From a virus, in the IMG/VR virus record IMGVR_UViG_3300046740_000036, positions 1 through 29,847 of that record: a stretch of DNA of 29,847 bases, one strand, 5' to 3'. The notes below the pieces were generated by a model. The model was not told the DNA's origin and did not search any database. It was given only the letters and a program-made list of their open reading frames with translations. Positions within the stretch are counted from its first letter, which is position 1. Every line of letters begins with the position of its first letter. The translations under genes were made by a program, and so were the position numbers. Positions 2,023 through 28,240 of this stretch are shown here, in pieces.

Positions 2023-2446
2023 AGTCGCCATGTGCACTCGATGCGGAGGGGCGTTCAACCCGGCAACGAAATGCCCTCACCCACACGCAATGGTAGAAAT
2101 GGCTCATACGCCAACCGTCAGAGAGTTAGTCCGCGAGATCCAGACCGAACTACGGACCACCGATGTCAGCCCCTCACGGGCCGCAGAACTGCTCGTCAAG
2201 CTCACGGCGCTGATGGGCAACTGTCTCGAGGAGATCCGCAACGCCGACCATGCCTATGCGCTGGTATTGCTTGGGCACCTCGAAGCCGATACAGCAGCAA
2301 ACAGGGCGAAGATCCGGGCCGAGACGACGCAGGAGTTTTTGTGGAAAAGAGAGTGTAGAGACACTAAGGAACTTGTGGTAGAAATGGCCCGATCACTTAA
2401 ATACATGCTCCGGTCTGTCGCTGAAGAAATGAGGCTGACACGGTGA
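2015..2446 (+). CDS. Hypothetical protein with N-terminal Cys/His zinc knuckle, 143 aa
   Basis: Start is GTG 2015, overlapping the exonuclease stop by 8 bases; ATG 2030 is an alternative that loses only five residues. Residues 6-24 contain CTRCGGAF plus CPHPH, a likely zinc site of the C-x2-C...C-x-H type. The rest is helical and charged (RELVREIQTEL, SRAAELLVKLTALMG, LVVEMARSLKYML), with no enzyme motif. Its stop overlaps the HNH gene start (GTGA 2443-2446). It belongs to a run of small zinc proteins in this operon. Function unknown. Confidence 0.6.
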   Translation: MAEVAMCTRCGGAFNPATKCPHPHAMVEMAHTPTVRELVREIQTELRTTDVSPSRAAELLVKLTALMGNCLEEIRNADHAYALVLLGHLEADTAANRAKIRAETTQEFLWKRECRDTKELVVEMARSLKYMLRSVAEEMRLTR

Positions 2447-2895
2447 GGCCACTTCCTGAGCGGCTTGAGAGTCGGATCATGCCAGAACCGAATACGGGTT
2501 GCTGGTTGTGGATTGGAAACATGAATCCGAACGGATATGGGTATTTCTTAAGAGAACCAGCACACAGGTTCGTCTACCAGACGATGGTTGGAGATATACC
2601 TGATGGACTCCATCTAGATCATCTCTGTCGCGTCAGGTCGTGCGTCAATCCTGACCACCTTGAACCAGTAACACCACTAGAGAACGTGCGTCGGTCTAAC
2701 TGCGCTGAAGTTCAACGAGCACTAGCAAGGACGCGAACCCACTGTAGGCGAGGTCACGAATACACCGCAGACAACCTCTATGTTACCGCTGTCGGCCATA
2801 GATGTTGCCGCGCTTGTAGTCGGCTAAATCACTCCGGTCATGAGCGGCAGCGGGCCTCTAAATACGCACCTGATTTCAGGAAGGCCACCCGATGA
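2443..2895 (+). CDS. HNH homing-type endonuclease, 150 aa
   Basis: Residues 17-80 carry the HNH_3 signature. It has a GCWLWIG start typical of phage HNH genes, then HRFVYQTMVGDIPDGLHLDH with H58/H60, N69 (VNPDHLEP) and H72. A second zinc-like site follows (HCRRGHEYT, then CCRAC). It should nick or cut double-stranded DNA. The gene sits within the + operon with GTGA and ATGA overlaps at both ends, so it is expressed with its neighbours. A hand-counted line inside it (2521-2580) is 27/60 GC, below most neighbouring lines, consistent with recent acquisition. Confidence 0.85.
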   Translation: MRPLPERLESRIMPEPNTGCWLWIGNMNPNGYGYFLREPAHRFVYQTMVGDIPDGLHLDHLCRVRSCVNPDHLEPVTPLENVRRSNCAEVQRALARTRTHCRRGHEYTADNLYVTAVGHRCCRACSRLNHSGHERQRASKYAPDFRKATR

Positions 2896-5580: not shown

Positions 5581-5653
5581 TCGGAGCGGTCAGACCCCAG
5601 CTCCTCCACCGGGGCGGTAGAGGTTCCCGAGCGCCGAGCCTGACCGGCTCCGA
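5581..5653. repeat. Imperfect inverted repeat between convergent operons
   Basis: Left arm TCGGAGCGGTCAG (5581-5593) pairs with CTGACC-G-GCTCCGA (5640-5653): 7 bp, a one-base bulge, then 6 bp, enclosing a 46-base loop that itself contains CCCC/GGGG. It fills almost the whole gap between the stop codons of the + operon (5580) and the - operon (5662). There is no T-run on either side, so it is not a textbook Rho-independent terminator. It may be an RNA 3'-end structure that protects or separates the two transcripts. Confidence 0.6.
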
Positions 5654-5659
5654 AGGGTG

Positions 5660-5863
5660 CTACTGGTCTGAGGTGGGTTCTGGATGCACCGCCAGCCAAT
5701 CGGCGTCTTTCGCCAAACTGGACGCCAACGCCGCTTGATAGGCGGCAATGACGTCTGCATCGCTGGGGACTGGTGCGTCTGGATGCTGCTGAACGAACAG
5801 CCCCTTGAGCGCCTCGATGATGGCCGGCGTCTCTTGAATGGCGAGGCCGAGCAGGGTTCCCAT
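5660..5863 (-). CDS. Hypothetical small protein, 67 aa (last gene of late operon)
   Basis: ATG at 5863 overlaps the stop of the upstream gene by one base. The protein starts with a hydrophobic-amphipathic helix (MGTLLGLAIQETPAIIEALKGLF) and continues with an Ala/Asp-rich region (SDADVIAAYQAALASSLAKD) ending EPTSDQ. No cysteines and no clear membrane helix. Proteins of this look are common at the end of lysis cassettes in phages of environmental origin; no function is assigned. Confidence 0.6.
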   Translation of the reverse strand: MGTLLGLAIQETPAIIEALKGLFVQQHPDAPVPSDADVIAAYQAALASSLAKDADWLAVHPEPTSDQ

Positions 5864-6273
5864 TACTGCACCTCCGTCAACAGCGTCTTCACCAAGGCCA
5901 CGTAAGGCGCGACCTTGCCACGGTCCTTCTCAGGCAGGGCGGGGACCAACGCATCCAACGACGTCGCCACCACGGTCTTCCAGTCGCTGCCAGCGGCATC
6001 CAGGATCTTCAGCGCCGATTGATGGTAGGTCACGATCTTCCGCGTCGTGTCCGTCGAGACGATCTGCGGCTTCGCGGCCTCTCCATCAATGGCGAAGTCC
6101 CGCAGCAGATCGAGTCCCTTGATGACCCGGGTCTTCTGGAAGTCCTGCGCGGCGACTGGACCGAGGGAGGGAGGGGCTTTCGCGCAGCCGGCCTCGAGCA
6201 CCGCCATCTGCCCGACAAACGCGAACGCACACAGCAGCGCGAGCAACAGCGACAGGTCGGACAGGCGTTTCAT
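5863..6273 (-). CDS. Exported protein, possible lipoprotein, 136 aa
   Basis: The N-terminus has a basic MKR, a long hydrophobic core (LSLLLALLCAFAFVGQMAVL) and then EAGC with C30. The last motif is a degenerate lipobox (Glu at -3 is unusual), so it is either a lipoprotein or a cleaved signal-peptide protein. The mature part is Ala/Lys/Asp-rich and helical (LDLLRDFAIDGEAAK, HQSALKILDAAG). Its place two genes after the probable holin, and its export signal, would fit a spanin-like or envelope role, but the sequence does not prove that. AGAGGG is well placed before the ATG at 6273. Confidence 0.6.
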   Translation of the reverse strand: MKRLSDLSLLLALLCAFAFVGQMAVLEAGCAKAPPSLGPVAAQDFQKTRVIKGLDLLRDFAIDGEAAKPQIVSTDTTRKIVTYHQSALKILDAAGSDWKTVVATSLDALVPALPEKDRGKVAPYVALVKTLLTEVQ

Positions 6274-6276
6274 GGG

Positions 6277-6654
6277 TTACCCTCTGAACTGGGGATGGGT
6301 CACATCGAAACTCTTTGTAAATTCAATCATGTCCTGAATCGCGGAGGCCATCCCGGCCCCCACCCCAACCAGACACGCGATTTTCATCTTAGAGAGGAAG
6401 TCCTGCGGCGGCAGGCTGAAAATGTATTCCGGCAGTCCCGTGGCCCCGACCCCAATCGAGGCGGAGAAGGACTGCAAGCCGGAGCGGATCGCCCGCACCG
6501 CCATCAGGTAATACCAGGGATACGCGACGACTTGGACGGCGGCGGGGGACCCATTGGCGGCAATGCCAATCGGGATGGGCGTGCCGTCCCCGGTGGTTTC
6601 GACGGTTTGGCGAACGACGGTCTGCTGGACAGGCTGTGGATCGTCGTCAGGCAA
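6277..6654 (-). CDS. Hypothetical late protein, 125 aa
   Basis: TTG at 6654 is used as start, with GGGAGG nine bases upstream and no better ATG in frame. The N-terminus is Asp/Gln/Val-rich and likely disordered. Residues 38-75 are mixed (VVAYPWYYLMAVRAIRSGL). Near the C-terminus a hydrophobic stretch (MKIACLVGVGAGMASAI) could be one membrane segment. It lies between the probable holin and the exported protein, so a lysis-linked role is possible but unproven. Confidence 0.55.
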   Translation of the reverse strand: MPDDDPQPVQQTVVRQTVETTGDGTPIPIGIAANGSPAAVQVVAYPWYYLMAVRAIRSGLQSFSASIGVGATGLPEYIFSLPPQDFLSKMKIACLVGVGAGMASAIQDMIEFTKSFDVTHPQFRG

Positions 6655-6759
6655 CTAGGGAGCCTCCCGGCCGTGCTTACTCTACCACGTCCGTTTAGGG
6701 CATCTGCACACTATCTTCATGCGGCAAAATGCTGACACTTGCGCGTAAGTGTATGCAGA
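6655..6759. other. Non-coding gap after the holin gene
   Basis: Between the holin stop and the next start there are about 105 bases with no convincing gene on either strand. It contains a short GGGAGCCTCCC palindrome (6659-6669), whose minus-strand half serves as the ribosome-binding site of the downstream TTG-started gene, and a CACTTGCGCGTAAGTG near-palindrome at about 6735-6750. Both could form RNA hairpins in the late transcript. I see no promoter. Confidence 0.4.
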
Positions 6760-6951
6760 TTACCGCGTCACGCTGATATGCGGAAACCCCGTCGCACCGA
6801 GCATGTTCAGTAGGTATATCAGGGCGATCAGCCCCAACACCAGCAGGACCACCGTGTTGATGGGTTCGGGCAGGCCGAGCATCGGCAGGAGCAGCTTCAC
6901 GATGTAGATGACGACGACGAGCACGATGAGGAGAATCAGCAAGCCGATCAT
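6760..6951 (-). CDS. Probable holin, two membrane helices, 63 aa
   Basis: The protein is almost entirely two hydrophobic helices, residues 1-25 (MIGLLILLIVLVVVIYIVKL...) and about 33-52 (NTVVLLVLGLIALIYLLNML), joined by a short Pro-containing turn (LGLPEPI), with a short polar tail. This is the class II holin topology and size. Context agrees: it sits downstream of the tail and glycosidase genes. A strong ribosome site, GGAGG (6957-6961), precedes ATG 6951. The inverted HNH gene is inserted immediately upstream and its promoter begins within 30 bases. Small membrane proteins of other function cannot be excluded. Confidence 0.65.
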   Translation of the reverse strand: MIGLLILLIVLVVVIYIVKLLLPMLGLPEPINTVVLLVLGLIALIYLLNMLGATGFPHISVTR

Positions 6952-6993: not shown

Positions 6994-7557
6994 ATGGCGA
7001 ACCACAGGAAAGATGGTCGCACTGGCGATCTTCGGCCTCTCTGCGCGTGTGGGTGTGGTGAGCGAGTCAGGAAATACCGCGCCGACTATCTGCTTGGACA
7101 CGAACGACTGAAGCGTATGCGAGAACGTGGAGATCCGCCAGCGTGCGCGTGTGGCTGCGGATTGCTTGTTCCTGCCATGCACGGTAGGCCGTGGATCTGG
7201 CAGCGTTACGTTCACAATCATCACCTGAAGGGTGAGGCGCACCACTTCTGGAATGGCGGTGAGGTTCACACGTCTAAAGGCTACGTGTGGGCAATGGCAA
7301 AGGACCATCCCAGAGCGAAAGAGAGCGGCCACGTCCTGCGCTCGCATCTTGTTGCTGAGAAAACTATTGGTCGCTACCTTCGCTCTGGCGAGGAAGTCCA
7401 CCACGTCAACCACAAGAAGTGGGACGACAGACCAGAGAACCTGATGGTTCTGAGCAAAGCCGCTCATGCGCGTCTTCACGCTGCCGAGCGGCGTGCTCAA
7501 CGACGCCACAAGATACCGGCTGAATCGATCATGACCCATCCTGGTTGCGGCGACTGA
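6994..7557 (+). CDS. HNH homing endonuclease, inverted in late operon, 187 aa
   Basis: The N-terminal third has two CxCGCG repeats (at about C17 and C51), which I recognise as the zinc-binding front end found in phage HNH genes. These are followed by HNH_3: SHLVAEKTIGRYL, then EVHHVNHKKWDDRPENL with H136/H137, H140 and N149, and HARLHA. It reads against the late operon, between the glycosidase and holin genes, and overlaps the 3' end of the glycosidase gene by 61 bases. It carries its own -10 box. All of this fits a mobile free-standing endonuclease expressed independently of late transcription. Confidence 0.88.
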   Translation: MANHRKDGRTGDLRPLCACGCGERVRKYRADYLLGHERLKRMRERGDPPACACGCGLLVPAMHGRPWIWQRYVHNHHLKGEAHHFWNGGEVHTSKGYVWAMAKDHPRAKESGHVLRSHLVAEKTIGRYLRSGEEVHHVNHKKWDDRPENLMVLSKAAHARLHAAERRAQRRHKIPAESIMTHPGCGD

Positions 7558-9269
7558 AGCGTAGTGGGCCTCATTCGCACCATGTTCGATCCGACGATGT
7601 AAGTTCGCAGGGTATTATCTGGAACTCTACTGTAAGCCCCAAGAGATGCATCCTCTGGAAAAGCGTTTAGCCCCACAAGGGCACAACCAGCAAGTTGCGC
7701 CTCTTCCGCTGTTGGGGGAAGAGCGAATTTAGCAGTCTGCGCGTGGAACGTCGCCCCGCCCCCGAAGAACCCCCCCGATCCGAAGTAGGCTTTCCAGTCA
7801 CTTACGCGATCTCCACCCACGTCCTGGAGCTTCGCCGGCTCATCGAAAATAATCGGGACATGATGAGGCTGACTTTGTGGATCATCAGGAGCGCCGTTAT
7901 ACAAATCCAGTCCGTCATGCGTGCGTCTCACCCACTCGCTGTCCCGCTGCGTATGGGTCGTTAGATACGTCCCCCACCATCGTTTGGCGGCTTCGGTATA
8001 GCAGCCATTGGTATACGGATACCCCGACGCCGCGAGTGCCGCCTTGAGCGGATTCGCATCGATGAAAATGCCATCGTGCTGCACTTCTGGTTCGTTCGCG
8101 GCCTCGAGGAACAGTCCAGGTAATCCAGCGGCCGTAAACGCATGAATTTCATCCAATGCATGGGACAGGCGGGCATGGTTGGAACTGGTCAGCAACGTCC
8201 ATTCCACATACCAGCCGAGCCGGTTCATCTCCTTCACGAACGCGACGGCTTCGTCAGGGGTTGGAGAGTCCCAGGTCGGGTCGGTCCAGTTCGGGCCTTC
8301 GACGTAGCTCCAGACCCGCAGGGTATTGAATCCCTGATACGCGCTCAGGAACGGCGTGAGGTCTTCGCCCCTAAGCCAGCGGTCACAGAGTTGGAAGGCA
8401 CTGACACCTTTCCATCTCCAAGCGGCACCATCGTCGGTTCTGAAGACGTGGCCGTCAGGGTGGACGGTGCGGACGATCCCTGGCGGAGGAGCCACAGGAG
8501 TGTTGAATGTTTCCCAAAGTCCAGCGGTGCTCCGGGTGACGTTGACGATGCCTCCCCCTCCGTCTTCGGCGCACATGAAGTGCCCGTTGTCAGATTGGAG
8601 AGCAATGCCTTGATTGACGTGAAGCTCATGCCAGCACTCCGAGGGACCAATGACTTGCCGGTTACACAGCAGCGCCCCGCCCCCGCCGTTCTCGGCGGTC
8701 AGGTAGTAGCCCTTGTCCGACTGGTAGGCGAACGTCCCATCGGGCTGTGGCAGGCGTTTAAACGTCTCCCACGGGCCTGCCGCGTCACGGTTGGCGTTGA
8801 CCTCGTGGCCCCCACCTTCCTCCGCACAGACATACTGCCCATTAGAGGCTCTGAACGTGATGGTCGTCGGCGGCTGCGGCGGGTCGGGATTCTTCAGCAC
8901 CACGATGGTTCTGGGGGTTCCTGTGGTATCCGTGACGTTCCCCGCCACCACCGACTGCAACCGAATCGGATACGACCCCACCGCTGGGAACAGATACTCG
9001 TAGGTCAGAGAAGTGGCCGGCACTTCCCCAGCCGTCTTCCAACTACCCCCTGTCAGATACTGCCACCGGAACTTGTCGGGATGCCCTTGCGTCACCTTCG
9101 CCTTCACCTGTGCGGCGTGGCCGAGTGTCACGGGGGTCTGAAACGACTCGATGGTGGCCTTGGCTGTCATAGGAGGGGGAACAGGATTCAGGTTGACGGG
9201 CGTAATCGGTTCAGCAGGTCCGATAACCAACTTGCCGGAAGCAGTGGAGCCGCGACGGATGGTGCTCAC
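7497..9269 (-). CDS. Glycoside hydrolase (clan GH-A type) with fascin-like beta-trefoil, 590 aa
   Basis: Domains in order: a Pro/Thr-rich N-terminus; a PKD/Ig-like domain (about 36-126); a beta-trefoil of the fascin-like type with three units (about 136-256, repeating NGQYVCAEEGGG, KGYYLTAENGGGG and NGHFMCAEDGGGG); and a TIM-barrel glycosidase (about 265-590). The barrel shows FNTLRVW, LFLEAANEPEV (N392-E393, the acid/base of clan GH-A enzymes) and VPIIFDEPAK (E477, candidate nucleophile). It should hydrolyse a beta-linked polysaccharide, perhaps host capsule, exopolysaccharide or cell wall. GTG 9269 overlaps the upstream stop. The 3' end is overlapped by the HNH gene. Substrate cannot be told from sequence alone. 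Confidence 0.8.
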   Translation of the reverse strand: MSTIRRGSTASGKLVIGPAEPITPVNLNPVPPPMTAKATIESFQTPVTLGHAAQVKAKVTQGHPDKFRWQYLTGGSWKTAGEVPATSLTYEYLFPAVGSYPIRLQSVVAGNVTDTTGTPRTIVVLKNPDPPQPPTTITFRASNGQYVCAEEGGGHEVNANRDAAGPWETFKRLPQPDGTFAYQSDKGYYLTAENGGGGALLCNRQVIGPSECWHELHVNQGIALQSDNGHFMCAEDGGGGIVNVTRSTAGLWETFNTPVAPPPGIVRTVHPDGHVFRTDDGAAWRWKGVSAFQLCDRWLRGEDLTPFLSAYQGFNTLRVWSYVEGPNWTDPTWDSPTPDEAVAFVKEMNRLGWYVEWTLLTSSNHARLSHALDEIHAFTAAGLPGLFLEAANEPEVQHDGIFIDANPLKAALAASGYPYTNGCYTEAAKRWWGTYLTTHTQRDSEWVRRTHDGLDLYNGAPDDPQSQPHHVPIIFDEPAKLQDVGGDRVSDWKAYFGSGGFFGGGATFHAQTAKFALPPTAEEAQLAGCALVGLNAFPEDASLGAYSRVPDNTLRTYIVGSNMVRMRPTTLQSPQPGWVMIDSAGILWRR

Positions 9270-9430
9270 GCAGCGGTCTGCTTCCGTTTCGCGGACGTGT
9301 TCATAGCAGGCACAGGTTCGGGCTTGTCCCAGTCATACCGCTTGCACTGCGGGCAGACTCTCGGATCCTTCAGGTTGCGCTTCAGCCACGCATGGTGACA
9401 GCGTTTGCAGGTCTTCTGAAACTTCGACAT
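9266..9430 (-). CDS. Zinc-ribbon miniprotein, 54 aa
   Basis: ATG at 9430 to TGA at 9266-9268, overlapping the glycosidase GTG (GTGA). The protein reads CKRCHHAWLKR, then VCPQCKRYDWDKP: two CxxC knuckles 15 residues apart followed by the Trp-Asp-x-Pro signature of a widespread small zinc-ribbon family found in bacteria and phages. The tail is basic (TSAKRKQTAA). Short enough to be missed by gene callers. The family has no firm function. It is co-transcribed with the late operon, unlike the other zinc ribbons on the left. Confidence 0.7.
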   Translation of the reverse strand: MSKFQKTCKRCHHAWLKRNLKDPRVCPQCKRYDWDKPEPVPAMNTSAKRKQTAA

Positions 9431-9450: not shown

Positions 9451-9903
9451 TTAGGGTAGGCCGTTACACACCATCAAATACACGTGGTTGCCATCCCGGT
9501 CGGCGTCTTCGATCCGGCTCTTCACCATGCCATACGCTTCACGGGAGTGGAGGACTTGCGTCCCGTCCGTGTTCAGCCCCACCAGCACGCAGCCTTCCGT
9601 GTCCAGCGATGTATTCCCGCTGTGAATCCGTATCCCCGTGAACCCCGGCACATGGAGGAGTTCCGGCATGAGTTGCCCGCCGAACCTCGTGGACTGACTC
9701 AGGATGACTCTGTAGGTGCCTTCCGGGATCGCTGTAGCACCATCGACCTTCCAGACCGAGACAGGCACCCCGCGCTGTTCTCGAACCAAATCTTCACAGG
9801 TCCAGCACCAGCGTTCCGACCAGACGCCCTCCGCTAACTCCTCCGATAGTTCGCCAATGGTCGAGGTCGGGCCTGAGGTATGGCGCTGAAGTCTCAGCTT
9901 CAT
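9451..9903 (-). CDS. DUF5675 family protein, 150 aa
   Basis: The core reads IPEGTYRVILSQSTRFGGQLMPELL, then VPGFTGIRIHSGNTSLDTEGCVLVG, which I recognise as DUF5675. It has a conserved His (H94) and a Gly-Cys (C105) on a beta hairpin, superficially like the active site of L,D-transpeptidases, although the spacing is shorter. Members sit in phage lysis/tail regions, and no canonical endolysin is visible in this window, so it is the best candidate here for a cell-wall-active enzyme. That role is inference. ATG 9903 overlaps the previous gene's stop (ATGA). Confidence 0.7.
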   Translation of the reverse strand: MKLRLQRHTSGPTSTIGELSEELAEGVWSERWCWTCEDLVREQRGVPVSVWKVDGATAIPEGTYRVILSQSTRFGGQLMPELLHVPGFTGIRIHSGNTSLDTEGCVLVGLNTDGTQVLHSREAYGMVKSRIEDADRDGNHVYLMVCNGLP

Positions 9904-10553
9904 ACGCCAATGCCGCCGTCAATCCACCATGCGCTGGCCCCGTCACTCAAGAGCCGTATCGTTCGAAACAGCGGCGAGGCTGAGAGTGCCACTGCATAGA
10001 CCGCCGCGATGCCCTCGATAGTGTCTGAACCCGCAGGAGTAACCGCTAGCGCGATGTTCCCCATGTTCTTGATGGTGAGTGGCATCCCCGAGCCTGTGCC
10101 CGTGGTGGACCGCGTAGAGGCCGCTGGGAGGTTCACGATACAGGGGTTGGCACCACCCGTGCTGTTCACCGTCACCAGATTGTCCGTGCTCAAGATGCTG
10201 TAGCCGCTGACGACGTTCTTTGCGCCTTCCGCGAGGATGTTCCCGAGACCCGCGAACGCAATCTGCGCCGGGTTCCCGACTCCTGACACGGTATACAACA
10301 CGACCGAGGTCGCGTCCTTCACCACCACGTCATACAGGTAGGCGGAACTCAGGAACACCTGCGCGAAGCCGCTGCTGTCCAACTGCACCGGGTTGGTGAG
10401 AGTCGCGGATCCCTGGTTGTCCGCGTAGACCACCCCGTTCGTCGTGGTGCCGGCGATGTAGAACAGGAGAAACCCCGAGGCGAGTGGTTCCCCATCGAGG
10501 TCGGTGAAGTAGCCGGGGAATTGGAGGAGGCTGAGCGGCACAGACAAGGGCAC
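9900..10553 (-). CDS. Tail fibre/tailspike N-terminal adaptor protein, 217 aa
   Basis: The first 75 residues (FPGYFTDLDGEPLASGFLLFYIAGTTT, VVYADNQGSATLTNPVQLDSSGFA) are the standard virion-attachment domain of phage tailspikes. In this class it is followed by a linker and a receptor-binding or depolymerase domain. Here the remainder is only about 140 residues of beta-structure without a catalytic or helix fold, ending WWIDGGIGV. The gene lies directly after the gp16-like gene, the same position as the P22 tailspike. GTG 10553 has AGGAGA seven bases upstream. It may serve as an adaptor for a separate receptor-binding protein. Confidence 0.7.
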   Translation of the reverse strand: MPLSVPLSLLQFPGYFTDLDGEPLASGFLLFYIAGTTTNGVVYADNQGSATLTNPVQLDSSGFAQVFLSSAYLYDVVVKDATSVVLYTVSGVGNPAQIAFAGLGNILAEGAKNVVSGYSILSTDNLVTVNSTGGANPCIVNLPAASTRSTTGTGSGMPLTIKNMGNIALAVTPAGSDTIEGIAAVYAVALSASPLFRTIRLLSDGASAWWIDGGIGV

Positions 10554-15503: not shown

Positions 15504-16085
15504 CTAGGGCTTGGTGACCGTGGCATGAAGGTCCTGACAAACCTCTTTGTAGTTCGCCACCGCAAACTGCTGAAACTCCTGGTTCCTGAGCAGGATATCC
15601 GGCCGAATCGAATACCCCGTCGCCCAGTTGAAGTTACAGCTGTAGCCGTTCTTCGGATCCACGCTCACATCGGCATGGGGCGCGTTCGCCATCCGCCACG
15701 ACTTCTCCAAGTAGAGATACGTCCACTCGCAGACGGGCGGCATGATGTGCGTCGGGTCGCCATAGGCTCGCGCTGACGCCCAGTGCGGGGTGATGATCTG
15801 GCAACTCCCACCGGGATGCAGCACCCGGAACAGTTCATTGAAGAACTGCACCCGCTGATACTGGTCCAGGTGCTCGAGGAAGTGGCTGCAGTGCGCCTCG
15901 ATGACCGAGTTGTCCTCCCACGGCCACGGAGTCACGCGGAGGTCTACCACCTGATCGACGCCGGGGAAGGGATGGCGGTCTACCCCGAGGAAGCCGTCGC
16001 GTTTATGAGGACCACACCCCAGATCGAGCTTGAGCACCGACTTCATCACCGGCGCAAGTGCCTTGGCTTTTGCGGCTCTACCCAT
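15504..16085 (-). CDS. Class I SAM-dependent methyltransferase, 193 aa
   Basis: The Rossmann SAM-binding motif I is LKLDLGCGPHKRDGFLGVDRHPF (about residues 18-40), with D21 and GCG. It is followed by HCSHFLEHLDQYQRVQFFNELFRVLHPGG, the usual methyltransferase motif IV-like region. The C-terminal third has no clear target-recognition domain. The substrate is unknown; sugars, small molecules or a surface glycan are plausible because a glycosyltransferase lies just upstream. Only the GIY-YIG gene separates the two. ATG 16085 has AGGAG ten bases upstream and overlaps the GIY-YIG stop by eight bases. Confidence 0.8.
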   Translation of the reverse strand: MGRAAKAKALAPVMKSVLKLDLGCGPHKRDGFLGVDRHPFPGVDQVVDLRVTPWPWEDNSVIEAHCSHFLEHLDQYQRVQFFNELFRVLHPGGSCQIITPHWASARAYGDPTHIMPPVCEWTYLYLEKSWRMANAPHADVSVDPKNGYSCNFNWATGYSIRPDILLRNQEFQQFAVANYKEVCQDLHATVTKP

Positions 16086-16842
16086 TACCGTGAATCTCCT
16101 TTGCCGCTCGCGCCTTCGCGAGTCCAGCCAATCTGACCGCCCTGATCACCGGATCTGCCCATTCACGCCGACGTGCCTCAGCAATCTTCTGCTTTCGACT
16201 CTCCGAGCATGGGCCGAGGCGTTGTCCTGTCTTGGATGCGCTAATCTTGCTGCGCCAGTCAGGGCTGGCGGCACGTTCTTGCGCACAAGCTAAGATCTTG
16301 GCTCTCACCTCAGGGCGAGCCAATGCCGACCTCACCGATGCGGCATGTTTACGCTGTGGCTCACCGGTAGCAAGATAGGCGCGATGCTCAAGGGCTTTCT
16401 GTTCCTGGTTAATCTGTGCAGCCTTGGCTCTTATTGCGTTACCACGCAAGCCATATTCTCGCAGGCGCGCTTTCTGATCTGGATCGGAATAGCGTTGTTG
16501 TTGGGCCTTGCTAATAGCCGCTTTCGCCTGCTCATTGCGCGGTCCCAATACGCCTTCTCCACCAGGAGTGACGTTGTAGCCATATGGGGACTGCGTTCGC
16601 TGTGACTGAATAGACTCTTGTTCCATCTGACAGAGCCTGTCCCAGTCATCACACTCCGCAATCACTTCGCGATGGAACGTCTCAGGACCATATTTCCTGA
16701 GAGCCGCATAGAGCACTCCGTTAGTGCGTTTACCCAGAGCATGCTCAACATGCTTCGCCCAACGTGCATCCAACGTCTTCGACGTAATGCCTATGTAGCA
16801 CTTCCCGTTCGGTGCCGTGAGTCGATAGAGGAGTCCCCTCAC
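16078..16842 (-). CDS. GIY-YIG homing endonuclease with NUMOD repeats, 254 aa
   Basis: GTG 16842 overlaps the upstream TGA (GTGA) and has GGAG eight bases away; a TTG at 16863 is a longer alternative. The catalytic domain is at residues 4-90: LLYRLTAPNGKCYIGITSKTLDARW with Y7, the YIG (Y16), R28 and E75. After it come YNVTPGGEG and repeated basic helix segments (KAAISKAQQQRYSDPDQKARLREYG, KISASKTGQRLG, KQKIAEARRREWADP), the NUMOD3-type DNA-binding repeats of phage-borne homing enzymes. It lies between the glycosyltransferase and the methyltransferase in the operon's own direction. Confidence 0.88.
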   Translation of the reverse strand: MRGLLYRLTAPNGKCYIGITSKTLDARWAKHVEHALGKRTNGVLYAALRKYGPETFHREVIAECDDWDRLCQMEQESIQSQRTQSPYGYNVTPGGEGVLGPRNEQAKAAISKAQQQRYSDPDQKARLREYGLRGNAIRAKAAQINQEQKALEHRAYLATGEPQRKHAASVRSALARPEVRAKILACAQERAASPDWRSKISASKTGQRLGPCSESRKQKIAEARRREWADPVIRAVRLAGLAKARAAKEIHGNG

Positions 16843-17546
16843 CACATGATCTCCCCATCCCAATGCCCAACTTTCACGTCACATGCTACGGCGCAACGAT
16901 AGCCGTATTTTCGAGCATCACCCCAAAACACGAGGTCTTGAGTTCCGAAGCCTTCTTTCCCTGCCAATGTCCTAAACCACGGCTTCTTCAACTTTGGATC
17001 CTTGAACATCTTCAAACGCCACAGATTAAAGCCCATTCCAGTTCCGCAGCATTCGACTAATCCACCATTGGGATCGGGCGGCTGTGGCCTGAAGTTCACT
17101 ATCGGATCCTTAGGATCGCCCCAAGCTTGTAAAACGCCTCCGTGTCCCTTCGTGAAATATGCCCCACCAATACAGGCCAATTCTGGATGGGCCTCCATGT
17201 GATCAAGAAGCTTGATCACGCCATCAGACGGAGGAGCATTATCCATCTCTATAGTCAGGATGTATTCCCATGTGCTGAGGTCAGGATGTGCCAACACTTG
17301 CTCAATGGCCTGTGAGTAGGCATCCCCCACCTCCATCCCCTCAGCCAGGATCCGCACCACCCCGTTGTTTGGGGGGAATCCGAGGTTCCAGTGGGACAAA
17401 GCGACCCGCGTGCTCATCGTCTTGTCGGCCGGCAGAATCACGACAATTCTCTGGCGCTTCCACGACCCGCCCTGAATCAGCCGCGCCGAGGTCTTGTGCA
17501 GATCGCCGTTATGCACGCCCGCGAAGTCTTGAACCACCAGAGGCAT
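16839..17546 (-). CDS. Glycosyltransferase, GT-A fold (GT2-like), 235 aa
   Basis: The protein has the GT-A pattern. VALSHWNLGF is the first strand, and YILTIEMDNAPPSDGVIKLLDHMEAHPELACIGGAYF is the central strand with E-M-D-N in place of the metal-binding DxD. GTGMGFNLWRLKMF (acceptor-side loop) and GTQDLVFWGDARKYGYRCAVACDVKVGHWD (C-terminal ED/H segment) follow. This form, with a conserved FWGDARKYGY region, occurs in several phages. It may decorate a virion protein or host surface glycan. TGATG overlaps the LamG gene stop. The acceptor is unknown. Confidence 0.8.
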   Translation of the reverse strand: MPLVVQDFAGVHNGDLHKTSARLIQGGSWKRQRIVVILPADKTMSTRVALSHWNLGFPPNNGVVRILAEGMEVGDAYSQAIEQVLAHPDLSTWEYILTIEMDNAPPSDGVIKLLDHMEAHPELACIGGAYFTKGHGGVLQAWGDPKDPIVNFRPQPPDPNGGLVECCGTGMGFNLWRLKMFKDPKLKKPWFRTLAGKEGFGTQDLVFWGDARKYGYRCAVACDVKVGHWDGEIMW

Positions 17547-24287: not shown

Positions 24288-24863
24288 ATGGCTAGGCCGC
24301 ATGGACTTTCCGGCGAAGACAATAACAAGGCAAAGGTAACGGCGCAGGACGTTTTGGCAATCAGAGACAGCAGAGAATCTGGGCCGATACTGGCTCAACG
24401 CTATGGTGTAACCGAGGGAACCATCAGCGACATTCGCTGCCGCCGTTCTTGGGACCATCTTCCAGCCCAGCGACGGTGTGATGAGCCGGGCGAAGAATGG
24501 CGTCCAGTGGTCGGCTTTGAGGATCGATATGAAGTCTCCAACCTCGGCCGGATTCGCTCGCTGTTCTCTCGCACAGGAATGATCCGAAACACGAAAGCCG
24601 ACAAACTGGGTTACCACCGTATCGCCTTGATCCGAAATAAGTCTCGGATCGATGCGCTGTTCCATCGAATCGTTGCGGCTGCGTTCCTGGGCCTGTGCCC
24701 AATAGGGTTTCAGGTTAATCATAAAAACGGCGACAAATCTGATAATAGGAGCGCAAATCTTGAATATCTCACCCCTAAAGAAAATGTCCGCCATGCGATG
24801 AGACTCGGCCTCCGGCGCTCCAAGAAACGTGTTCATGATGTGCCGAGCACTGCGTCTAGGTAA
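24288..24863 (+). CDS. NUMOD4-HNH homing endonuclease with N-terminal HTH, inverted, 191 aa
   Basis: Three modules are visible. Residues 15-58 form a helix-turn-helix of the resolvase-like kind (KVTAQDVLAIRDSRES, ILAQRYGVTEGTISDIRCRRSW). Residues 68-110 form NUMOD4 (GEEWRPVVGFEDRYEVSNLGRIRS). Residues 125-172 form HNH_3 (HRIVAAAFLGL, FQVNHKNGDKSDNRSANLEYLT with H145 and N157, NVRHAM). It cuts against the late operon in the gap between two fibre genes and overlaps the 3' end of the upstream gene by 31 bases. A homing or group-I-intron origin is likely, but no intron is seen. Confidence 0.9.
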   Translation: MARPHGLSGEDNNKAKVTAQDVLAIRDSRESGPILAQRYGVTEGTISDIRCRRSWDHLPAQRRCDEPGEEWRPVVGFEDRYEVSNLGRIRSLFSRTGMIRNTKADKLGYHRIALIRNKSRIDALFHRIVAAAFLGLCPIGFQVNHKNGDKSDNRSANLEYLTPKENVRHAMRLGLRRSKKRVHDVPSTASR

Positions 24864-27082
24864 CCATTTACGACCACCCAAGCGACAGGATCCGTGCACG
24901 CAATCCGATACACCCGGTCCCGGCTACTGCCCATTCGCCGCAGGATCGCTCTGGTCCGAAATGCCCCAATCGCCCCGGTCTGGACGAAGTGGATGTCACT
25001 CCACGTATGCCCCCCATCATCCGACCAGTCGATCTCAAGCAGCGGATCCGAGCCTTGCCCCGTGCTGATGCCGTTGCCGGCGTAGAGGTCAATCTGAAGC
25101 TTGGAGAAGAACTGCCGCATCTGCTCCTGACCAATGTGCGGGAACCACCGCTCCCTTCGGATCAGATATTCGGTGCCACTATCTCCGCTCGGCGTAGGAG
25201 GAAGTGGAGGACTGATGGCTTCGCGCAGGATAAATGACGGACAGGACGTAGACAACCCAAACCGTGCCACCGGACTCGCCGTCGCCGCAGCGCTATAGAT
25301 ACCTTGGTCGAATGTTGCCTGAGTCACCGTCGCAAGAATTACCCCAGTCGCAGCCACTATGTTGTAATAACTACAGGTGTCCGTGGCGACTTCATCATGT
25401 AACCGAAGCCAAAACGTCGTCGGATCGTCAAGGGCATGAAACAGCGATCCAAAGCTACTATTCGTAGTGAAGTTGTAGGTATTCAGCGTCGCGCCCGCTG
25501 CATCGTATCTACGAACAAATGTTAGCGCACCACCTCCAGACGGTTTTTGGTAGATCGCCAGCACGCTATCATCACCCAATACCATGAGGTCATTAGTGGT
25601 ATAGCTAGCGACTCCAGCGACAAGGTTCGCTCCGAATGTATTGGTATTCGGATTCCACTGCTGGATCGGTGCGTTTATGGACGAACTTTGACCAGTGGTA
25701 TAGATAATAGACTCGTCATTACTCGCTGCCGCATTTACAAGACCCAGTGCTGGCAGCGTCCATGTATCCGTGACGATTCCATCTCCGTCTACCCGGTTGA
25801 TAAACGCCGTGCCTGGGAACGTGCCAGAGTTTCCTACATAAAACACCTGCGCTCCAACGCAGGTCCGCACGGAACTGTTACTGCGTGAGGTCAAGCCTGA
25901 GACAGTCGCGATAACGTCTAGCTGACCATTGAACAACTTGAACGTGCGGTCGTCATCATCGGCGAGTAACACCCGCCCATTTTCTAGAACGTCTCCACCG
26001 AGTTCGCTATTAGTGACCGCAACATCGAAAAACCTTAATACCTGATAATTCGCCCCATTCGTAGGGCTGACGACGGCAGTGAAAAACCCCGACGTATCGT
26101 CATTGTCGAAGATCGCACCTATTGGAACTGCGGATGTCGGACCTGGAACAGCAGAGAGTGTCACGTCTACGGATGGAGGAGTGCTACCGAACTTGTGGAC
26201 ATACAAATACAGCAATGTGCCTTCAGATTGCGGCACTTGGATCGGCTTGTTAGTCGCCTGTAATGACAAGAACGATGTAGTGCCGTCTGATTCATAGACG
26301 GTAATCCCGATATTTTCGGTGGCAATATCGGAATAGGCCCAGAATCCCGCCATCAACTCGTCGGCATGTCCGGTGTAGGAATACCAGGCATACAAGCCAT
26401 CCCCGAAGTCTTGCGTGATGGTCTGCGGCAGCGTGGCGAAGGCCGTAGCGGTCGCTGCACTACTATTCGTCGGTATGGATGGATCAGAAACGAAAGACCC
26501 AGATCCTATCTGTGTCCAGTCATGCCCATTCCCGCTCTGGTCGGTGACCGTCGAGGAGAATGGGCAATCCATGTAGAGATTCGACGTATGGACCGCAGAC
26601 GTCGCCTGCATCTCCAAGAGAAGCTGGGCGGCACTCAACGCTGTCGTCCATTCCCGGCAGTAGGCCACCGTCACGTCGGTCTGAGCGGTGATAGTATCGC
26701 CGCCCATAAACTCAAATCCGTTCGTAAACGCCGATCGATTCAGTGTGAAGGTGCCTATGGATGTCGCATTGATGTAGAGCCGCTGAGTGGTGCCACTCTG
26801 CGTCCACGCATAGAACGACCATGTATCCGCTGTCGGAGGTGTCCCGTTTACTGTTCCAGGTCCAGTCCCCTGCAGAATGGCATTCCCTGAGTTGGCATAT
26901 AACGCCGTGTAGTTGGTATAGACCGCAGGATCATCAAGGATCGCATAGGCCACCTGATGCGCCGGAGACGTTGACACGGTGGGGAACTTCGCCCAGAAAC
27001 AGACCGTGCTATTACCAGACGCAGGAAGTAGCGACGTGGTGCGCTTCAGGTAATCCGACGTGGTGGCGAAGTGGACCGCCAT
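24833..27082 (-). CDS. LamG/propeller protein fused to a gp10-like C-terminal domain, 749 aa
   Basis: Residues 1-180 are a LamG/ConA-like module (CFWAKFPTV, SFYAWTQSG, AQTDVTVAYCREWTTALSAAQLLLEM). The middle (about 180-630) is repetitive beta structure, consistent with a propeller (GRVLLADDDDRTFKLF, GDGIVTDTWTLPALG, NDESIIYTTGQSS). The last 110 residues (IRRERWFPHIGQEQMRQFF, GQGSDPLLEIDWSDDGGHTW, GAFRTRAILRRMGSSRDRVYRI) are the C-terminal domain I know from P22 gp10-type stabilisation proteins, where it normally follows the propeller in the same chain. Hand counts of three 60-base lines inside (25501, 25561, 25681) give 29, 30 and 25 GC, against 34 and 37 in flanking lines 27841 and 28321. 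Confidence 0.8.
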   Translation of the reverse strand: MAVHFATTSDYLKRTTSLLPASGNSTVCFWAKFPTVSTSPAHQVAYAILDDPAVYTNYTALYANSGNAILQGTGPGTVNGTPPTADTWSFYAWTQSGTTQRLYINATSIGTFTLNRSAFTNGFEFMGGDTITAQTDVTVAYCREWTTALSAAQLLLEMQATSAVHTSNLYMDCPFSSTVTDQSGNGHDWTQIGSGSFVSDPSIPTNSSAATATAFATLPQTITQDFGDGLYAWYSYTGHADELMAGFWAYSDIATENIGITVYESDGTTSFLSLQATNKPIQVPQSEGTLLYLYVHKFGSTPPSVDVTLSAVPGPTSAVPIGAIFDNDDTSGFFTAVVSPTNGANYQVLRFFDVAVTNSELGGDVLENGRVLLADDDDRTFKLFNGQLDVIATVSGLTSRSNSSVRTCVGAQVFYVGNSGTFPGTAFINRVDGDGIVTDTWTLPALGLVNAAASNDESIIYTTGQSSSINAPIQQWNPNTNTFGANLVAGVASYTTNDLMVLGDDSVLAIYQKPSGGGALTFVRRYDAAGATLNTYNFTTNSSFGSLFHALDDPTTFWLRLHDEVATDTCSYYNIVAATGVILATVTQATFDQGIYSAAATASPVARFGLSTSCPSFILREAISPPLPPTPSGDSGTEYLIRRERWFPHIGQEQMRQFFSKLQIDLYAGNGISTGQGSDPLLEIDWSDDGGHTWSDIHFVQTGAIGAFRTRAILRRMGSSRDRVYRIACTDPVAWVVVNGYLDAVLGTS

Positions 27083-28240
27083 CTAGAGGCCTGTCCCCAC
27101 CATAATGCGATCTGTAGTCAGGTCCAGTCCCTGCCGGTAGATCGTTCCGCTCTGCCGATCCCCCACCAGATGAGTCCCAAACGCAAACGCATGACAACGG
27201 CCAAGATGCGGATAATGCCGCCGAGTCTTCGGACTCCACTGCGACCGCTCACACCAGACCCCCGTCGCCGCATCGAAGACCCAACTCGTCTCCATGTCCG
27301 GCGCGTAGAGGTGATAGAACGAGTGCCCCGCCTCGCTGTAGCACCAGCCAATCGACTGGTCCATGCCTTCCGCTCGATTGAAGAAGATCTCGCTCGAGAA
27401 GCTAGACACGCGCTGGAAGTTGTAGCCGTTGATCCGCATCACCTGATCGCGGCCGTTCTCATTCCCGCTCAACAGGAACAGCGTGTTGTCCATCTTTGCG
27501 ACGGAGTTCTGTGCCGCAACCCCCCACTCCACCACCGTCTCAGAGATGGGCACATACGGGGTGTCCGCATCCCCGCTGTCGAAGTAGGGCAGGGAGTGCT
27601 GTGACCCAAACAACCAGAGCGTTTCATGGCTCACCGCCATCTGCACGAGGTTGTCCGAGAACAGCGAGACTTCCTCCACCTGCAGCGGATCCCACGTCGT
27701 CGCGTCTTCAAGGGCGGAGTAATAGAACTGACGCGTGCCCCCTCTGAGCGCAATGAAGTCGGAGTCAAAGAACACTACCGTCTGCACCGGCTGCATGAAG
27801 TTGATGCTGGTGACGTGCGTCAGCGTGTAGGTCGGGCTAAACGTCGTCAGATCGAGCACGTAGAGTTGCCCGAATGACGTCAGCGCCAGTTGGTTGCTCT
27901 GCGTCCCTGACGAGGCGAATGACACACAATCCGACCCACCGAAACTCGAGGCTCCGACCGACCCGATGACCGAGACATTCCCAGACGCATAGACTTCATG
28001 CAGGAACTCGCCACCGACCGCAAAGCACCGCCCGTCCTGGTAGAAGATCCCACGGACAGGACCGGCCGAGAGGGTAGCGAACGGGGTCAGGCCGGGACGG
28101 GGGACGAGTTGGCCCTGCGGGTTCTTCCCAGAGGCTCCGCCGTCCGGTTGTTCGACAAACCAGTTGATCGTGCGTTCGGCGTCCGCGTTGACCGAGTAGA
28201 CCGAACCGGAAGGGCCAATGACGCCGGGGGCAACAGGCAT
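27083..28240 (-). CDS. gp10-like packaged-DNA stabilisation protein, N-terminal propeller part, 385 aa
   Basis: The start IGPSGSVYSVNADAERTINWFVEQPD, then LVPRPGLTPFATLSAGPVRGIF and DGRCFAVGGEFLHEV, is the conserved opening of a large podovirus head-tail protein family. In that family a beta-propeller is followed by a C-terminal beta domain. Here the chain stops after the last propeller blade (HLVGDRQSGTIYRQGLDLTTDRIMVGTGL). The missing C-terminal domain sits at the end of the next gene. TAG (27083-27085) is followed in frame by ATG (27080-27082). It should plug the portal with the gp4-like factor. GAGGG lies four bases before ATG 28240. Confidence 0.8.
   Translation of the reverse strand: MPVAPGVIGPSGSVYSVNADAERTINWFVEQPDGGASGKNPQGQLVPRPGLTPFATLSAGPVRGIFYQDGRCFAVGGEFLHEVYASGNVSVIGSVGASSFGGSDCVSFASSGTQSNQLALTSFGQLYVLDLTTFSPTYTLTHVTSINFMQPVQTVVFFDSDFIALRGGTRQFYYSALEDATTWDPLQVEEVSLFSDNLVQMAVSHETLWLFGSQHSLPYFDSGDADTPYVPISETVVEWGVAAQNSVAKMDNTLFLLSGNENGRDQVMRINGYNFQRVSSFSSEIFFNRAEGMDQSIGWCYSEAGHSFYHLYAPDMETSWVFDAATGVWCERSQWSPKTRRHYPHLGRCHAFAFGTHLVGDRQSGTIYRQGLDLTTDRIMVGTGL

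Follow-up and report, generated by a model that had tools for sequence, protein, structure and literature searches.

What does a phage gain from a gene in which a trefoil of carbohydrate-binding type appears to be joined to a glycosidase barrel? The question is raised by an open reading frame at 7497-9269 of the window, by which we mean the whole stretch of a virus record that was analysed (29,847 bases). A preliminary description had seen here a phage glycosidase composed of a PKD-like domain, a fascin-like beta-trefoil and a clan GH-A barrel. It had suggested that this protein and a nearby adaptor divide the work, one depolymerising and the other attaching to the receptor, or, alternatively, that the enzyme is released.

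Gene and domain layout

The frame, which had been given without a strand, is open and intact and encodes 590 amino acids on the minus strand. Its GTG start overlaps the stop of a 54-aa upstream ORF (GTGA). The following features were delineated:

7497..9269 (-): whole gene, 590 aa, intact open frame
9168..9269 (-): residues 1-34, N-terminus modelled at low confidence
8892..9167 (-): residues about 35-126, Ig/PKD-like beta domain, weakly supported
8490..8873 (-): residues 133-260, CBM92-like (bacterial fascin-like) beta-trefoil, three repeats
8760..8771 (-): WETF, residues 167-170, first CBM92-type ligand-site motif
8622..8633 (-): WHEL, residues 213-216, second repeat, degenerate motif
8505..8516 (-): WETF, residues 252-255, third CBM92-type ligand-site motif
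7500..8486 (-): residues 262-590, clan GH-A-type (beta/alpha)8 barrel with a small C-terminal beta part
8091..8093 (-): E393, predicted acid/base, NEP motif, after beta4, invariant in 10/10
7839..7841 (-): E477, predicted nucleophile, DEP motif, after beta7, invariant in 10/10

A long antisense ORF, 8142-9398 (+), was not preferred, the minus frame being kept in nine relatives; codon-position composition does not clearly separate the two frames. The full-length model has a pLDDT of 66.5 with the trefoil at low confidence, and in a comparison with the PDB glycosidases rank at the top with poor superpositions. We therefore drew the conclusions on the fold from a model of the barrel only, in preference to the full-length one. 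In the latter the proposed PKD-like domain is indeed beta-rich (pLDDT about 55-75), but the Pfam match of the protein to PKD_3 (E 0.024) falls short of the family cut-off. Inspection of residues 1-34 gave no signal peptide-like stretch at the N-terminus of the window protein. The two proposed catalytic motifs, N392-E393-P394 and F475-D476-E477-P478, lie exactly where they had been placed. Of the three CAE-type units, VCAEE and MCAED carry CAE and LTAEN does not.

The trefoil module

The three internal repeats of the trefoil can be aligned with one another. When residues 134-261 alone were compared with Pfam, DUF7910 (4e-17), FRG1 (1.3e-7) and Fascin (2.7e-5) were found. Among PDB sequences the full protein matches 7zoi (2.9e-11) and 7zoh (7.3e-9) best, fascin scoring about 4e-5. 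These two entries are CpCBM92A and CpCBM92B (PMC11039641). As this study describes the family, each CBM92 repeat bears one WExF motif whose Trp and Glu contact the sugar, some members lack the Trp at one or more sites, and the modules bind beta-1,6-glucans by preference. CBM92 modules formerly went under the name 'bacterial fascin-like domain', and trefoils of this kind are known from carbohydrate-active enzymes. In the window protein WExF is present in two of the three repeats, giving two canonical sites and a degenerate one. The trefoil had been recognised correctly, but as the closest solved structures are CpCBM92A and CpCBM92B, which outscore fascin, and as the WExF motifs stand at the ligand-site positions, CBM92-like is the better name. 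Judged by its sequence, the module is CBM92-like with two canonical predicted sites.

A search of annotated phages with the trefoil alone gave no significant match. Among plasmids five records were found (E 2e-12 to 0.02), all matching within query residues 81-268, mainly in the trefoil. Similar trefoils are encoded in two further phage records, which carry our handles L008 (38% identity) and L038 (40%). The search that gave L038 confirmed 2 of its 36 pattern-matched stretches, the second being once more the L008 contig. Together with the window there are three distinct phage records with a CBM92-like trefoil, and in all three another domain follows it on the C-terminal side. In L008 (1486-2901) and L038 (3797-5233) the trefoil stands at the start of the protein, and 270-330 aa remain behind it. 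These remainders match no Pfam family. Membership of the window's barrel family was not detected for them by hhalign (probability 0.1 and 0.3), nor was a relation between the two (E 0.054).

Fold and family placement of the barrel

The barrel-only model is of good quality (pLDDT 85.1, pTM 0.88). In its numbering beta4 (125-130) is directly followed by N131-E132 and beta7 (212-215) by E216, that is, E393 and E477 of the whole protein. The structure prediction thereby bears out the proposed clan GH-A barrel with both predicted catalytic residues at the expected strand ends, and the gene belongs to no known non-enzymatic fibre family that we could recognise. Among the structural matches listed, 4qfu, 3kzs, 5msy and 8t9w are at the top, with Z from 24.4 to 23.1 over 306-310 residues at 3.3-3.4 A; 4qfu reaches 24.4 over 306 residues and the GH140 apiosidase 23.1. 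GH5 mannosidases and mannanases come next among them with Z about 20. We group 5msy, 4qfu and 3kzs with GH140 as well; 8t9w alone bears a GH140 title. A Z of 23-24 indicates a common fold, which does not confer membership of GH140. Compared with the viral library BFVD, the model comes closest to a phage protein listed as uncharacterized (E 2e-19).

GH5 is described as a family in which eight residues are strictly conserved, namely Arg, His, Asn, Glu, His, Tyr, Glu and Trp (PMC3978015), and two mannanases without the first His have been reported (PMC3059134). Five of the eight (Arg, Asn, both Glu and one His) are kept in the barrel family. None of the ten sequences has the beta3 His, the beta6 Tyr (His+2) or the beta8 Trp; the beta3 and beta8 positions were mapped by strand order and HMM alignment rather than by residue-level superposition. 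Canonical GH5 was ruled out on these three residues. We therefore place the barrel, as modelled, in clan GH-A, close to GH5 and GH140, and assign it to neither. The plant type GH5_14 was likewise ruled out. In rice OsGH5BG the fascin-like module is inserted after barrel strand beta1 (PMC3526467), whereas in the window protein the trefoil (133-260) lies ahead of the whole barrel, whose first strand the full-length model places at 286-290.

Relatives of the barrel and conserved residues

On its own the window barrel matches no Pfam family at E<=10 and no PHROG. Annotated phages gave no significant match to the full-length protein, one chance match (E 8) to the barrel alone and no significant match to the barrels of two relatives, L035 and L033. 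Scans of viral contigs and of genome contigs with the single protein returned nothing. With a DNA pattern derived from the DEP and GATFH motifs, 13 stretches of viral contigs were picked up; four of them, including that of L015, hold barrel relatives. Scans of viral contigs with alignments then confirmed 9 of 13 stretches and, in a second scan, 3 of 72. After removal of duplicates nine relatives and the window make up the final alignment (A5), with 21-43% identity to the window; all nine come from uncultured phage contigs. The genome scan with alignment A4, which required one of two patterns of 8-9 residues, yielded 123 stretches and no confirmed one. Within the reach of these scans, the one of genomes being limited to the two patterns, the group appears in uncultured viruses only.

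One of nine members matches Pfam Cellulase (E 0.0034), and a PDB search with the family profile finds GH5 endoglucanases (best 1.2e-8), the alignments shown passing through NEP. The L015 barrel is only weakly similar to the window by tblastn and clearly similar to other members; a stop codon inside its profile match ends it early, and it may be a broken copy.

Fifteen of the 329 barrel positions are invariant in all ten aligned sequences: F292, N315, R318, N392, E393, H439, R442, P472, D476, E477, P478, G505, T507, F508 and H509. The last four belong to the GATFH motif. E393 and E477, which are both among the fifteen, had been named before any alignment existed. Their conservation and their position in the model are what we observe; from these we infer catalysis.

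Gene surroundings

The enzyme gene is the last large ORF of a minus-strand block. At its 3' end it is overlapped by 61 bases by a convergent HNH ORF, 6994-7557 (+) (HNH_3, 3.7e-9). Upstream lie:

9266..9430 (-): 54-aa ORF with two CxxC pairs (by eye), directly upstream of the enzyme gene
9451..9903 (-): DUF5675 protein (3.6e-25), between adaptor and enzyme
9900..10553 (-): 217-aa adaptor-type protein (phrog_26190), no catalytic domain seen

The DUF5675 protein may be a lysis protein. Of the proposed division of labour between enzyme and adaptor only the proximity was found; the two proteins have no detectable sequence similarity (best chance alignment E 2.8).

Elsewhere in the window there are three homing-endonuclease-type genes, 2443-2895 (+), 6994-7557 (+) and 16078-16863 (-), recognised by two HNH_3 matches and one homing-endonuclease PHROG match. 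Weak matches to a glycosyltransferase at 16839-17546 (-) (phrog_12406, 2.3e-5) and to a methyltransferase at 15504-16085 (-) (phrog_6636, 5.5e-10) lie within the minus-strand block, and both genes have relatives in the record L004. A 749-aa protein at 24833-27082 (-) has a lectin-like N-terminus (Laminin_G_3, 2.9e-9), and its C-terminus matches a head-closure PHROG, as does its neighbour. The head protein 27083-28240 has relatives in 41 annotated phage records, including Rhodoferax, Vibrio and Acetobacter phages, with about 27-34% identity in the ten of the 41 that were listed. These sequence relatives hint at a Gram-negative host.

The surroundings of the barrel relatives vary. In L028, L029, L030, L033 and L037 a large ORF of 345-724 aa lies directly upstream of the barrel gene. 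Some of these ORFs resemble one another, and their family matches tell little: there are just phrog_15511 (L030), a family of unknown function, and a PKD domain below cut-off (L029). In L035 the barrel gene comes after a Peptidase_M15 gene and a 342-aa protein that has no detectable relationship to the barrel, and in L015 it adjoins an ORF that is endolysin-like by eye. The L023 gene is flanked by genes for DNA polymerase A, nucleoside deoxyribosyltransferase and dGTP diphosphohydrolase. In L037 the ATG of the barrel gene overlaps the upstream stop, and the protein starts with MRRLLTLLALLLTLNAC, by eye a predicted lipoprotein-type signal. This protein (5653-6894) has an extra stretch of about 90 aa ahead of the barrel. 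No such leader is seen in the window protein and six other N-termini, L032 and L015 standing outside this comparison; a hydrophobic stretch from residue 23 in L030 is part of the domain start. Behind the barrel gene in L025 (4166-4645), L024 (4346-4729) and L035 (7567-7947) stand small lipoprotein-like ORFs that resemble one another by eye and are possibly spanin-type. Such diverse settings of the barrel genes make an obligatory virion part less probable, though still conceivable for the window protein.

Proposed function of the protein

We suggest, with somewhat better than even confidence, that the protein is a phage-borne polysaccharide-degrading enzyme with a glucan-tethering trefoil which is made late and released at lysis. 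The C-terminal barrel would be a retaining clan GH-A glycosidase with E393 as acid/base and E477 as nucleophile. Repeats 1 and 3 of the trefoil would, with their Trp-Glu sites, tether it to a glucose-containing polysaccharide; judging from CBM92 biochemistry the ligand is probably a beta-1,6-linked or -branched glucan. Late expression is suggested by the position of the gene, which closes the block of structural and lysis genes. As the enzyme has no export signal of its own, it would most likely be freed at lysis and could then cut host or biofilm exopolysaccharide, aiding the spread of the progeny. With this the phage glycosidase of the preliminary description is upheld as regards the clan GH-A barrel, both glutamates in place, the fascin-type trefoil and the late region, its catalysis being a prediction. 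We note, however, that no family model recognises the window barrel directly, that the trefoil is modelled at low confidence and that its second site is degenerate.

The enzyme could instead be a depolymerase bound to the virion, attached to the tail via its N-terminal region and clearing surface polysaccharide during adsorption as a complement to the adaptor at 9900-10553. It is encoded on the late strand near this adaptor-type protein, and its fold is weakly similar to BFVD phage proteins named endoglucanase or cellulase. The five relatives that directly follow large tail-region-type ORFs are placed as virion depolymerases would be, which counts against release. In L038, too, an adaptor-type fibre lies upstream of the trefoil protein, a second instance of proximity that favours a split of attachment and depolymerisation. 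Yet the N-terminus does not resemble the local adaptor, although other anchors are conceivable, and the enzyme matches no PHROG. A receptor machine of two proteins is also not supported by relatives that are a predicted lipoprotein (L037) or lie in a DNA-metabolism region (L023). Because of these two relatives and the missing similarity to the adaptor we favour a released enzyme over a virion part, to which we would give about one chance in four. The context of L015, beside the endolysin-like ORF, and of L035, one gene after the Peptidase_M15 protein, was also counted for release. Release, the alternative already named in the preliminary description, fits better than the split receptor machine, and a late, lysis-released polysaccharide-degrading enzyme fits best.

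Less probable still is an auxiliary enzyme which serves neither release nor adsorption but changes the use that the infected host makes of environmental polysaccharide such as plant, fungal or algal glucan. Active soil-virus glycosidases exist, among them a GH5 endomannanase (PMC6786970), CBM92 modules bind beta-1,6-glucan (PMC11039641), and L037 is a predicted lipoprotein. The window protein, however, is without a signal peptide-like stretch, and among the Pfam and PHROG matches in the window no polysaccharide-metabolism genes were recognised beside the enzyme gene. A barrel without catalysis that serves as a carbohydrate-binding scaffold would account for the loss of the beta3 His, beta6 Tyr and beta8 Trp of GH5 in all ten members. 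It is hard to reconcile with both glutamates, Arg318, Asn392 and His439 being invariant in 10/10 in spite of 21-43% identity to the window, and we consider it very improbable.

A wider proposal, which we put forward tentatively and at rather less than even odds, is that the barrel is the first of a clan GH-A glycosidase family outside the present classification, borne mainly by uncultured phages, that is deployed in various ways, free with a beta-glucan-binding module in the window and as a host-envelope lipoprotein in L037, and that remodels the glucan-containing matrix around the infected cell.

Comparison with known systems

Such phage proteins escape Pfam and PHROGs and stay labelled 'uncharacterized'. 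The alignment turns the barrel proteins into a testable enzyme family with named, predicted catalytic residues, and a first idea of the polysaccharide comes from the CBM92-like module. This bears on how environmental phages handle exopolysaccharide or soil glucans. Enzymes that combine a trefoil with a barrel are already known (PMC3526467, PMC11039641). Among the papers listed in our literature searches no title suggested a CBM92 protein from a phage or a phage tail barrel of GH5 type. What is new is that the barrel family is unclassified and that a phage joins such a barrel to a CBM92-like trefoil, and with the window, L008 and L038 such modules are now added to phage proteins.

With CpCBM92A and CpCBM92B the window protein has in common the three-repeat trefoil, significant sequence similarity, WExF in two repeats and an attached glycosidase-type domain. 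It differs in the WHEL of repeat 2, in being phage-borne and in a barrel partner outside the known Pfam families. The GH140-type structures (BT_1012 5msy, 8t9w; also 4qfu and 3kzs) are closest in fold, including the C-terminal beta part, at 10-12% identity to a barrel that has no Pfam match. The endoglucanases and mannanases of GH5 share profile similarity through NEP and the fold (Z about 20), and it is the loss of the beta3 His, beta6 Tyr and beta8 Trp (10/10) that sets the window family apart from them. Plant GH5_14, as in rice OsGH5BG, likewise combines a fascin-type trefoil with a GH5-like barrel. Three entries in BFVD (A0A6J5R577, A0A1B1ISZ4 and A0A6J5R1U1), two listed as uncharacterized and one nameless, have the same barrel fold (E 2e-19 to 2e-10, TM (query) 0.64-0.72). 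The soil-virus GH5 endomannanase, likewise of clan GH-A type and encoded by a phage, also comes from a viral contig of environmental origin. It was found via curated Pfam/InterPro annotation and its activity is confirmed (PMC6786970), whereas the window enzyme had gone unrecognised and is predicted from sequence and model.
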